NCBI GenBank assembly: GCA_002731015.1
Contig: PBZM01000029.1
Span: forward strand, 1 to 33,304
Source: Gammaproteobacteria bacterium
Lineage (GTDB): Bacteria; Pseudomonadota; Gammaproteobacteria; Pseudomonadales; Litorivicinaceae
DNA: 33,304 nucleotides
Reading direction: 5' to 3'
Shown here: piece by piece, positions 3,186 to 20,716 of the stretch
Position numbering within the stretch: the stretch's first letter is position 1
Layout of the letters: each line of letters opens with the position of its first letter
Program-made: the position numbers and the translations under genes
The notes under the pieces: model-generated
Told to the model about the DNA's origin: nothing
Databases searched by the model: none
What the model saw: only the letters and a program-made list of their open reading frames with translations

Positions 3186-3301
3186 GGTGACTCTTGTCGG
3201 TCCCCTCGCAATCGAATATTTGTAAATCCCGTCAGGCCCGGAAGGGAGCAGCGGCAGCAGATGTTTGGTGTGCCGGGGTGTGGCTGACAGGGGTTGCTTC
3301 C
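3186..3301 (+). ncRNA. ffs: 4.5S / signal recognition particle RNA (bacterial small type)
   Basis: GTCAGGCCCGGAAGGGAGCAGC...GTGTGCCGGGGTGTGGCTGACAGGGG matches the conserved GGAA-tetraloop domain of E. coli 4.5S RNA; ends are approximate. Confidence 0.88.
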
Positions 3302-6081: not shown

Positions 6082-7166
6082 CGGTTTTAAATTGGATTGA
6101 TCAACAGACTGCGCTAGATAATCTGATAGCCGTTATTTCAGAGTCGCCTGCAATCACTTTAGATACAGAATTTGTGCGCGTCTCAACTTTTCATCCCAAG
6201 CCGGGTCTGATTCAAATAGGCGTGAAGTCGAAAGCTTTTTTAATTGATCCGCTCGTTGGTTTAGATCTACAGCAATTGGGTAATCGCCTGAGTAACGGTG
6301 TTACATCGATATTGCACGCCGCTCAAGAAGACTATGAGGTGTTATTTCGACTTACGGGACAGCTTCCTAGACTTGTGTTTGATACTCAGATTGCTTACGC
6401 GCTGCTCAACACAAAAATCTCAACGAGCTTATCCTCCCTTGCGTCAGACCTTCTGGGTAAGCAGATTTCTAAACAAGAAACTCGTTCAGATTGGACGCGT
6501 CGTCCGTTATCGAATGCGCAACGTCAATACGCTGAGGAAGACGTGTTAGTGCTCGAGCCACTGTATGAGATTCTATCGGAGCAACTCGAGAAGGCCGGTC
6601 GACTGGACTGGATGCGCGAGGAAATGCAATCGATTATGGATCGGAACACGTCTATTCTGGTAAATGGCGATCTTGAAACGCAAATCCATAAATTTGGTAA
6701 TGCATGGCGATTGAGTCCGACAGGAATGTCGAGGTTGGTGCATCTTATTAAATGGCGTGAAAGGGTAGCCCGCCGATTTGATAAACCAAGGAAGCAGATC
6801 TTGAGCGATCAATCAGTGTTTTCGTTAGCGGCCTCTGGCGATATCGGTCGCCACCATCAATTAGTTGGTCAGCATGGTTTGAGTAACAAACAAGCGGGTC
6901 GATACGGTGAGGAATTAAAATCGGTGATTCAATATGCTATGGGTGTTGACGCTATTGAGCCACCGCCACCACCCCTGTCAAAGCATTTAAAGGAGGTGTT
7001 TAAGGAGCGACAATCTAAGGTGCAAGGTATTGCTAATGAGTTGGGAATTGCTCCGGAAATGCTAGTGAAAAAGCGACAAATTGTGGCTTCACTGGATGGT
7101 CGTGAATGGAAGCCATCAGGATGGCGTAAAGCAGTTCTGGAGGATGTGTTTCGTGCGCATGGTTGA
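6078..7166 (+). CDS. rnd: Ribonuclease D
   Basis: ITLDTEFVR exonuclease I motif, LHAAQEDYEVL, YAEEDVLVL; HRDC-like C-terminus. Confidence 0.9.
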   Translation: MTVLNWIDQQTALDNLIAVISESPAITLDTEFVRVSTFHPKPGLIQIGVKSKAFLIDPLVGLDLQQLGNRLSNGVTSILHAAQEDYEVLFRLTGQLPRLVFDTQIAYALLNTKISTSLSSLASDLLGKQISKQETRSDWTRRPLSNAQRQYAEEDVLVLEPLYEILSEQLEKAGRLDWMREEMQSIMDRNTSILVNGDLETQIHKFGNAWRLSPTGMSRLVHLIKWRERVARRFDKPRKQILSDQSVFSLAASGDIGRHHQLVGQHGLSNKQAGRYGEELKSVIQYAMGVDAIEPPPPPLSKHLKEVFKERQSKVQGIANELGIAPEMLVKKRQIVASLDGREWKPSGWRKAVLEDVFRAHG

Positions 7167-17699: not shown

Positions 17700-17775
17700 G
17701 CAGGTGTGGCTCAGCTGGTAGAGCACCCCCTTGGTAAGGGGGAGGTCGCGGGTTCAAGTCCCGCCACTTGCACCA
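17700..17775 (+). tRNA. tRNA-Thr (anticodon GGT), CCA encoded
   Basis: GCAGGTG acceptor pairing with CACTTGC, CCCCC-TTGGTAA-GGGGG anticodon arm, GCGGG-TTCAAGT-CCCGC T arm, terminal ACCA. Confidence 0.95.
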
Positions 17776-17923
17776 GTTAAATCAATAGTTTGCGTGAATC
17801 TCGCTGTCATCATCAAAGAATTGCACCTGGATCTTCCAAAATTCTTCAGGCTAAAGCCGCACATGGAACTGTAACAAAAAATCTCCGCCGAAACGGATTT
17901 TGATTACCTAAGTTGCTTCTTGG

Positions 17924-18250
17924 TTAAGAGTTTGCTGGTTTGTATGCTCCGGTGGTCGATCCTGCTAGCTTCATCCATCCTACCTGCTCTTCTGCTGTGA
18001 ATACTTCCACTGCAGAAGTGTTCTCGACGCTTCCGGTGGACCCGACGACCAAAGCCATGGCTCCAACATCGACGTTGCTCCCTGTGATCACCATGAAAAT
18101 ATGTCCTGTGGCTGAAACGTAAAAACAGTCAAGGGTGATGTTCATTTTTTCGAGTAACCTTTTGATGGCCTCTTCTCTATTGTGTGGATTTTCTATCATT
18201 CCCTTCATTGCAGAACTCGTATAGTTCGCTGTTACGAAGTACTTCGACAT
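17924..18250 (-). CDS. GYD domain-containing protein
   Basis: MSKYFVTANYTSSAMKGMIENPHNREEAIKRLLEKMNITLDCFYVSATGHIFMVITG; SD AGGAG 7 nt upstream of ATG at 18250. Confidence 0.82.
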   Translation of the reverse strand: MSKYFVTANYTSSAMKGMIENPHNREEAIKRLLEKMNITLDCFYVSATGHIFMVITGSNVDVGAMALVVGSTGSVENTSAVEVFTAEEQVGWMKLAGSTTGAYKPANS

Positions 18251-18264
18251 AAGACATCTCCTAT

Positions 18265-18462
18265 TCACCTAAATAAATTTAGAGCGATTGATAAAACAAT
18301 ACTAATTACAATGCAGGTGACGATGGGAAAGAAAAACGAGGTATCACCAGACTTGAATGCAATGTCACCCGGCAAGCGGCCAAAAGGTAACAGCTTCAGA
18401 TAGGGGTACAACAATCCCGCAACTACCAAAACTATCCCGGTACCAATGAGAAGGTTTTGCAT
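18265..18462 (-). CDS. DUF2905-type small membrane protein
   Basis: GIVLVVAGLLYPYLKLLPFGRLPGDIAFKSGDTSFFFPIVTCIVISIVLSI. Confidence 0.85.
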   Translation of the reverse strand: MQNLLIGTGIVLVVAGLLYPYLKLLPFGRLPGDIAFKSGDTSFFFPIVTCIVISIVLSIALNLFR

Positions 18463-18495
18463 TATCTGCCTCTTAAAACGAATTTACCTGTGTCT

Positions 18496-18693
18496 TCACT
18501 CTTTTATGGGCACACATCTAAAAACAGTTGTCCCGCCTAGTTTCTCAAGATCACCATCATCGTCTACGGAGTATGGTGGAATATGCCCATAAGAGCCACC
18601 TGCTTCGACGCATGCCTTCTGTGTATCAAATGTAACCCCCGATATGACTACTCCACCGTTTAGGATTTGCCATATCAGCATCCACTTAATCAA
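18496..18693 (-). CDS. Small hypothetical protein with hydrophobic N-terminus
   Basis: 65 aa, co-oriented just upstream of the DUF2905 gene; conserved-looking FDTQKACVEAG...FRCVP pattern. Confidence 0.5.
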   Translation of the reverse strand: MIKWMLIWQILNGGVVISGVTFDTQKACVEAGGSYGHIPPYSVDDDGDLEKLGGTTVFRCVPIKE

Positions 18694-19156
18694 CGTATTC
18701 GCCTCGATTAATCTTTCGTGAAACGATATCAGGGATCAGCAACAGTTCAAATTCTTGCAGGTTCGGTACCGCTCGCGCAAATCGCTTACGATGTGTCGAA
18801 TCAAACGTGAGGTACGTCTTCACCTAATATAATTAATTGCAAATAAAACATTAGGATATTTGAATATTATAAATGAGTATGCCGAGATCGAATCCATGTA
18901 CATGGGTTTGCAATCCGCTGCATAGCCACGCCGCCAATGCGCCTTTGATCGCCATTTAAATGGTATCTCCTCAAGCTCTGAATTCATCGGTCTTATAAGT
19001 TGGTACTTTTGCACATAGGTGGGGTCCTCGTTAGAACTGAAACCACCTAGCCTGCTCTTTCATAAATTGATGGTCTAGCCTCCAGTGTATTGGAACTCTG
19101 CAAAGCCAACAGAGCACCAGAGACGATCAAGCACAGTTCGCGTTGGAGGAACTTTT

Positions 19157-20290
19157 TCATTGCCTCAGAAGCTCTTTACACGATTTTCGATCTAATCCAA
19201 GTCCCTTAGCTTTTTCAATCCATTTATCACCTTCCTTGCCTCTCATCCACCCAATGCTTGCGTTGGTACATACAGCTTTCGCATTGGACGGACGTTTGTT
19301 CACCTCAGGTTTCGTATCTACTAGTTCGAATCTTGGCTTACCAAGCTTTTCTCGGCTATCCGCTATCTCCCAATCTGTGAAGTAGATTGTTTGTTTAGGC
19401 AGCTTTATGGGCCAATCAAATTCAAACGGAGTGCCCAATTTTGAACTGACCGCACCGTTACTTTGGCCTTTTGAATCTTGGTGGTAAGCGGCAAAAGAGA
19501 TATTATTCCTTTGTATCCAATCCAAATTCTCAGGTTGCAATAGTAGCCAACGTGAAGGGAAGGTGTTGTAGATTCCGAACTTCAACTGGAGTTTCTTCCT
19601 ACCTCCGTCCTTCAATCCTCGCTCGGTAATCAACGGCGTTTTAATAGAGCAAACATTTCTGCCGTTAATGCGATAAAGAAAGAATGGCTCATCTCTCTTG
19701 ATACGCTCCTTACCCTTTGTATAGTCGGCAAATATTTCAACTTCGATCCACTTCCCACGAGGAACATATTTTTTATTTACGAAACAAGCACCGCCTCGGG
19801 CAGTGTCTGTGGAAATTTTTAACCCCTCCTTATGGTAATGGATCATCCAGATCGGTTGATTTTTTTGATGCAACTTCACTTGATGAATCATCTGTGTCAT
19901 CGGAGACGTATCTGGAAATTGGCTTTCGTCAGGTATAAAAATATTGGTGCGATAATAGCGTCGTATCTGTTTTGTCTTTGAGCCAAAACTTTGAAGACCG
20001 ACTTTGTATCCATCTTTCAACTCGACCCGTTGACGATCATTGTCGCAATCTGACCAACTCTGATCCCCACCACAGCCCCCATGCTCAATTTCGAACTTGT
20101 AAACAGTCATATCTAACAACTGTTTTTCTGGTGGATTTTTGGTGATTACAGATAAACTCGGGTGCTTATTTGAATCAATCTTCCATCGATCAATGCTCTG
20201 TGCAAAGACCTCTGGCGCAAATGAGCATGTCACTGCGAAGCAAGTAACAGCTAGTGAAGCTAATGAGTCTCCAAATGGCCTGCGAGTCAT
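19157..20290 (-). CDS. Secreted heparin-lyase-I-like / polysaccharide-lyase-like protein
   Basis: Signal peptide-like MTRRPFGDSLASLAVTCFAVTCSFAPEVFAQ; jelly-roll lyase-like RQRVELK, MTQMIHQVKLH, PIWMIHYHKEG, GKWIEVEIFADY, LKFGIYN. ATG at 20290 has GGAG SD; the ORF-track extension reads antisense through a tRNA remnant. Confidence 0.65.
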   Translation of the reverse strand: MTRRPFGDSLASLAVTCFAVTCSFAPEVFAQSIDRWKIDSNKHPSLSVITKNPPEKQLLDMTVYKFEIEHGGCGGDQSWSDCDNDRQRVELKDGYKVGLQSFGSKTKQIRRYYRTNIFIPDESQFPDTSPMTQMIHQVKLHQKNQPIWMIHYHKEGLKISTDTARGGACFVNKKYVPRGKWIEVEIFADYTKGKERIKRDEPFFLYRINGRNVCSIKTPLITERGLKDGGRKKLQLKFGIYNTFPSRWLLLQPENLDWIQRNNISFAAYHQDSKGQSNGAVSSKLGTPFEFDWPIKLPKQTIYFTDWEIADSREKLGKPRFELVDTKPEVNKRPSNAKAVCTNASIGWMRGKEGDKWIEKAKGLGLDRKSCKELLRQ

Positions 20291-20332
20291 ATGATCTCCA
20301 AGTCGGTTATATGATCGAACTACCTTAAAAAC

Positions 20333-20367
20333 GGGGATTGCGGATTCAAGTCCCGCCATTGGCACCA
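20333..20367 (+). repeat. tRNA 3'-end remnant (T arm, acceptor strand and CCA)
   Basis: GGGGATTGCGGATTCAAGTCCCGCCATTGGCACCA; shares a 14-nt identical core TTCAAGTCCCGCCA and GCACCAG with tRNA-Thr at 17700-17775, same orientation; no tRNA 5' half upstream. Confidence 0.75.
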
Positions 20368-20470
20368 GCACACAACCCTAAAAATTAAGTTTTCTGACTG
20401 TTTCCTTAGCTATATTTTGTATCTGCCGAGTACCTTCGCCCTCGATTTCGTGCTTAACGTGCCCAATTCT

Positions 20471-20493
20471 TGCATCGTCCGATGCATTTTTTT
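20471..20493 (+). terminator. Rho-independent terminator
   Basis: TGCATCG-TC-CGATGCA followed by TTTTTTT. Confidence 0.75.
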
Positions 20494-20716
20494 GGTTGGT
20501 GAGCGATAGGTATATGCGCATCACGATAGCATCAGCGAAGCCTGTTTGCACAATTCCCCTTACTTAAGGTCCGGGGGAAGGGTTACAAGGCTCATTACAC
20601 AAAGAACTATTGGCCGGATATGAGATAAACTGGTGGAGTAGTAATATCAGATCTATGGGTAGAAGAAGACTACCGACGCCCCTGGATGTTTATCAGCGCC
20701 GGAGTAAGAATTAAAT

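Follow-up and report, generated by a model that had tools for sequence, protein, structure and literature searches.

Partial transfer RNA (tRNA) genes are pervasive at integrated elements (PMC9897764). In 'Ca. Actinomarinales' (PMC7771536) and 'Ca. Methylopumilus', additive islands are fed by tRNA-targeted cassettes, and in the latter group repeats of the tRNA-Lys end precede the flexible genomic island fGI-2 (PMC10872708). Cis-mobilisable elements (CIMEs) have no integrase and keep their attachment (att) sites (PMC5704250). Tycheposons, found in Prochlorococcus and with examples in the Methylophilaceae (PMC10872708), are tRNA-anchored cargo islands of marine bacteria that carry a tyrosine recombinase. 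The locus described here lies in a 33,304-nucleotide stretch of DNA (the window), in which an intact tRNA-Thr(GGT) gene is followed on the same strand by a decayed tRNA 3' end, with genes for a secreted polysaccharide lyase and small proteins between the two. Probably the interval 17776-20367 is an additive island of some age, now partly decayed, that was inserted behind tRNA-Thr(GGT) by an integrase which acted in trans or was later lost. The host group is presumably Litorivicinus/Litoricola, an OM252-type marine gammaproteobacterium. The window is contig C29 of a source assembly (G000), a metagenome-assembled genome of 1.52 Mb in 94 contigs, 82% complete; the comparison set consisted of 22 genomes of the genus, including HIMB30 (G008), LSUCC0096 (G001) and records named Litoricola.

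Like the additive islands, the locus has variable content at a conserved position. It differs from them in that its repeat is decayed, its right junction is unproven, and its cargo consists of secreted polysaccharide lyases, a GYD protein and other small proteins. The likeness to CIMEs lies in the tRNA 3' repeats on both sides, the lack of an integrase and a possible mobilisation via a tandem or co-resident integrase; unlike the CIMEs, it has a decayed right repeat, and neither a conjugative relative nor an intact att pair was seen. With the Tycheposons it shares the anchoring of cargo at a tRNA in a marine bacterium, but a tyrosine recombinase was not seen inside its repeats, nor inside the related islands of G004 and HIMB30. 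No paper on islands of this genus turned up in a literature search. Most likely the locus adds a new but decayed case to a known kind of tRNA island. Insertion at tRNA ends is a known route of gene gain in ocean bacteria, and the relatives show fresher examples with related cargo.

The tRNA-Thr 3' fragment and the insertion site

The initial annotation had placed an intact tRNA-Thr(GGT) ending at 17775 and, downstream in the same orientation, a tRNA 3' fragment without a 5' half. Both were borne out. ARAGORN and Rfam agree on the intact gene, and bases 20340-20367 are identical to its last 28 nt at 25 positions on the same strand, a match that none of 150 shuffles reached (dinucleotide shuffling of the following 10 kb; best matches 15-19 of 28). 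The distance from repeat to repeat is 2592 bp. The interval thus lies between an intact tRNA and a 3' fragment on the same strand, the arrangement by which a tRNA island is recognized. The fragment core TTCAAGTCCCGCCATTGGCACCA (23 nt, 20345-20367), which lies on the same strand as tRNA-Thr, was searched with up to 3 mismatches through the whole 1.52-Mb assembly and occurs elsewhere only in tRNA-Thr (2 mismatches) and tRNA-Leu(GAG) (3 mismatches). Sixteen other tRNAs of the assembly, searched over stretches of contig no longer than 20 kb, have no comparable 3' fragment; only tRNA-Thr has one. The fragment is real and tRNA-Thr-like. The annotation had named decay or another parent tRNA as alternatives; the fragment is decayed, because its T stem (GCGGA/CCCGC) and its acceptor have lost part of their pairing. 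Rfam called no RNA there at loose thresholds.

The gene order prpE - mnmH - tRNA-Thr - gap - AMP-ligase - chrA is conserved among the relatives as far as the contigs extend. The gap between tRNA-Thr and the AMP-ligase is 0.2-0.3 kb in six genomes (G001, G007, G008, G013, G015 and G020), and measures 3.5 kb in G000, 1.6 kb in G009 and 14 kb in G021. In the G005 assembly the surroundings of tRNA-Thr were not located. The 14-kb insert of G021 (L088 1967-15978) begins at the CCA end of tRNA-Thr; inspected translations indicate a sugar-ABC (ATP-binding cassette)-transporter-like cluster at tRNA-Thr in this genome and in G018 (L092). With the tight site of G008 as the reference, homology stops at the last base of tRNA-Thr in G021 and one base later in G018. 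In this genus, then, insertions occur at the 3' end of tRNA-Thr. The site also behaves as a hotspot, with different content 3' of the tRNA in G000, G017, G009, G018/G021 and G003. As a side observation, tblastn finds the AMP-ligase of HIMB30 (L060 2843-4485) in two pieces that overlap, with a single in-frame TGA, which is a frameshift or sequencing error.

Lyase cassettes at other tRNA genes

Homologues of the lyase are patchily distributed, being present in six of the 22 genomes and at different tRNAs. Of the seven loci of the family, six have a tRNA at a distance of ~3.5 kb or less; a rough binomial estimate, with 28 tRNA loci per 1.9 Mb assumed, gives p ~8e-6. The clearest case is in G004 (L097 3111-7010), where an insertion at tRNA-Arg(CCT), 3,821 bp from repeat to repeat, carries genes for a secreted protein of 272 aa and a lyase-domain protein of 607 aa. 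The exact 17-mer TGTTCGGGACACCATTG bounds this insertion on both sides, and the sequence past the right repeat is the flank found directly 3' of tRNA-Arg in G008 and G018. The site is empty in both of those genomes, and ~8 kb beyond it is colinear in G008. The empty-site proof is complete for this island.

A second island, in HIMB30 (L096 7852-13139), has a lyase and a GYD protein between a tRNA(CAT), which is Met according to ARAGORN and perhaps tRNA-Ile2, and a 48-nt same-strand 3' fragment, over an interval of 5,211 bp. In its T arm this fragment, unlike the intact copy, resembles the tRNA of G001/G015. This is the trace expected when an integrating element replaces the 3' end of a tRNA. 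The GYD protein of the window is 46% identical to the one in this island. In G016, compared with G000, a ~7.5-kb insertion with a lyase lies directly 3' of tRNA-Arg, and no right fragment is visible. Inspection of the ORFs (open reading frames), made without a profile hidden Markov model (HMM) search of each ORF, showed no integrase in the G004, HIMB30 and G016 intervals, and no Phage_integrase match falls inside them.

These loci suggest that lyase genes of small-genome pelagic gammaproteobacteria travel as small tRNA-anchored cassettes without an integrase of their own. The lyase repertoires of close relatives, and with them the algal or microbial polymers that can be used, may then differ by single insertions. 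The tRNA-Arg site of G004 is a clean case for asking which integrase moves such cassettes.

How the locus may have arisen

If the interval is an island, DNA was most likely put at the 3' end of tRNA-Thr by a tyrosine integrase, one that came from a prophage or some other element or that has since been deleted. The displaced copy of the tRNA end would have been left as the right att remnant, and the fragment would be the attR of this particular cargo. Repeated gain and loss at the hotspot could have produced the mosaic of a tRNA-Cys-like sequence, a gene end and the start of a secreted protein that is seen at 18870-19160 (Table 1), and the GYD, DUF2905 and lyase genes would have survived the later turnover. 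The island proposed in the initial annotation is thus upheld in part. The six tight sites, the stop of homology at the CCA end in two relatives and the integrase-free lyase islands at other tRNAs speak for it. The empty site asked for there was not found: none of the relatives joins tRNA-Thr straight to 20368 and beyond, and the bases directly after the tRNA are common to G017, G009 and G012.

Several observations weigh against an island. First, 20368-20575 has no homologue in the genus, and the right junction is therefore unproven; from 20300 to 20590 nothing homologous is found in the genus apart from the tRNA-like bases. Second, G017, G009 and G012 have no right-end fragment. Third, the fragment is decayed and has a near competitor in elongator tRNA-Met. 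Fourth, the first 29-40 bases 3' of the intact tRNA, common to the three relatives, are possibly native flank. A simple island would place the native flank after the fragment, and a shared block after the intact tRNA is not predicted by it. The ORF and Pfam searches showed no integrase in 17776-20367, as the initial annotation had also found; tRNA islands typically have an integrase gene at the tRNA-proximal end, though decayed ones have often lost it, and its absence counts against membership among the Tycheposons.

This block bears on the alternative that survives best, a possible though not a likely one, in which the post-tRNA flank is native and the lyase segment, with the tRNA fragment at its right edge, was brought in by homologous recombination or rearrangement from a truly tRNA-integrated island elsewhere. 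The fragment would then have travelled with the segment and would not mark the att site of this locus. The alignment of 17776-17814 with the post-tRNA sequence of G017, G009 and G012 favours such a history; beyond the 29-nt block a weaker similarity reaches ~17905. Relative to G005, moreover, the replaced block runs from 18960-19015 to 20575, internal and away from the tRNA, and the tRNA-Cys-like relic and truncated secreted protein mark the stretch as a mosaic. Against it, the presence of the parent tRNA-Thr 2.6 kb upstream in the same orientation would have to be a coincidence, and the block is missing from the six tight sites and present only where the region has expanded. The four genomes that share the block otherwise differ at that place. 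Within the block region G012 is more like G017 than G000 is, and the other members of the G012 clade carry a different flank, alike among themselves. The block may be native flank, or it is possibly the left end of an element.

Viral contigs bear on the second possibility. Some have 3' halves of tRNA-Thr(GGT) without 5' halves, and in one of them, L269 (IMGVR_UViG_3300017914_001735), 45 nt of the tRNA-Thr 3' end adjoin a tyrosine-recombinase-like ORF; this is probably a phage that integrates at tRNA-Thr(GGT). An exact-pattern search for the post-tRNA block in viral contigs found none. The sequence after the tRNA core resembles the block in two contigs, L287 (15 of 19 positions to G009, p 0.0006) and L269 (12 of 19 to G009 and G012, p 0.0014), and no comparison of the tight-site flanks with viral post-core sequence gave p below 0.01. 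To the list of points against an island belong the weak likeness of the viral sequences to the window itself (p 0.008 and 0.06) and the fact that the resemblance was noticed post hoc and is absent in five of the seven contig groups.

Going further than an island at this one locus, it is conceivable but doubtful that Litorivicinus bacteria have in common a family of minimal lyase cassettes without an integrase, which integrases supplied in trans carry from one tRNA isotype to another (Thr, Arg and the CAT tRNA, and perhaps also Ser and Asn); the window would then hold an old member, with the block as its left end.

An origin of the fragment from another tRNA, elongator tRNA-Met or a tRNA-Leu, with no relation to tRNA-Thr, is improbable. 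Elongator tRNA-Met matches the fragment at 24 of 28 positions and equals tRNA-Thr over the last 38 nt (29 of 38 each). In the alignment against tRNAs called for by the initial annotation, which covered 56 distinct sequences, the best parent was the GGGGGA allele of tRNA-Thr, present in this genome and G017; the tRNA-Thr of the lineage leads both in the 28-nt match and in local score, with 26 vs 22 for elongator tRNA-Met. The Leu-type origin suggested there ranked low, with scores of 20 for tRNA-Leu(TAG) and 19 for tRNA-Leu(GAG). A chance resemblance to a tRNA 3' end, for which it can be said that the T-arm core is common to many tRNAs, is very improbable and is contradicted by the shuffles and by the whole-assembly search, which gave no other non-tRNA match.

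Content of the interval and its flanks

Table 1. Features at and downstream of tRNA-Thr(GGT), in window coordinates
Feature	Position	Strand	Basis or remark
Intact tRNA-Thr(GGT)	17700..17775	+	ARAGORN and Rfam; presumed attB/attL side
Conserved block GTTAAATCAATAGTTTGCGTGAATCTCGC	17776..17804	+	Common only to G017, G009 and G012 (22 genomes)
GYD-domain protein, 108 aa	17924..18250	-	Pfam PF08734
DUF2905 membrane protein, 65 aa	18265..18462	-	Pfam PF11146
65-aa ORF	18496..18693	-	No Pfam match
Decayed full-length tRNA-Cys-like sequence	18870..18943	-	blastn to intact tRNA-Cys of G003, 85% over 61 nt
3' end of decayed gene	18960..19015	-	Intact in G005; 82% over 56 nt
37-codon N-terminal remnant (MKKFLQREL...) of second secreted protein	19047..19160	-	
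Secreted polysaccharide lyase, ~377 aa	19157..20290	-	Pfam PF14099, E=2.7e-8
Decayed tRNA-Thr 3' fragment: T arm, acceptor, CCA	20333..20367	+	Presumed attR
Intrinsic-terminator-like hairpin and T run	20471..20493	+	TGCATCGTCCGATGCA-TTTTTTT
Point at which homology to G017 and G005 returns; sub-clade ORF of 146 aa	20585..21157	+	

The cargo listed in the initial annotation (a GYD protein, DUF2905, a small ORF and a secreted lyase-like protein) was recovered, with Pfam families for all except the small ORF. A search of solved structures with a profile built from the five lyases gave no sequence relative. Signal-peptide starts like that of the truncated secreted protein precede lyase-cluster genes in relatives. 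The decayed gene at 18960-19015 was labelled DUF2007-like from motifs only, without an HMM check. A tRNA-Cys-like stretch is also present in G009, ~0.35 kb past its tRNA-Thr and on the opposite strand (L053 near 6933-6985).

In the G000 assembly Phage_integrase matches occur at one place only, on contig C63. All 22 genomes have tyrosine recombinases; judged by size and score, most of the strong matches resemble the conserved pair of Xer enzymes. No conjugative genes were seen in the region, and a nucleotide search of phage genomes returned matches to the tRNA only and none to the cargo.

On the right side, the Rho-independent terminator that had been annotated at 20471 is present as a hairpin followed by a T run. 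In G017 and G005 a 129-aa membrane protein stands ahead of the 146-aa ORF, and G005 has additional genes. Elsewhere in the window, a bacterial small signal recognition particle (SRP) RNA lies at 3195-3292.
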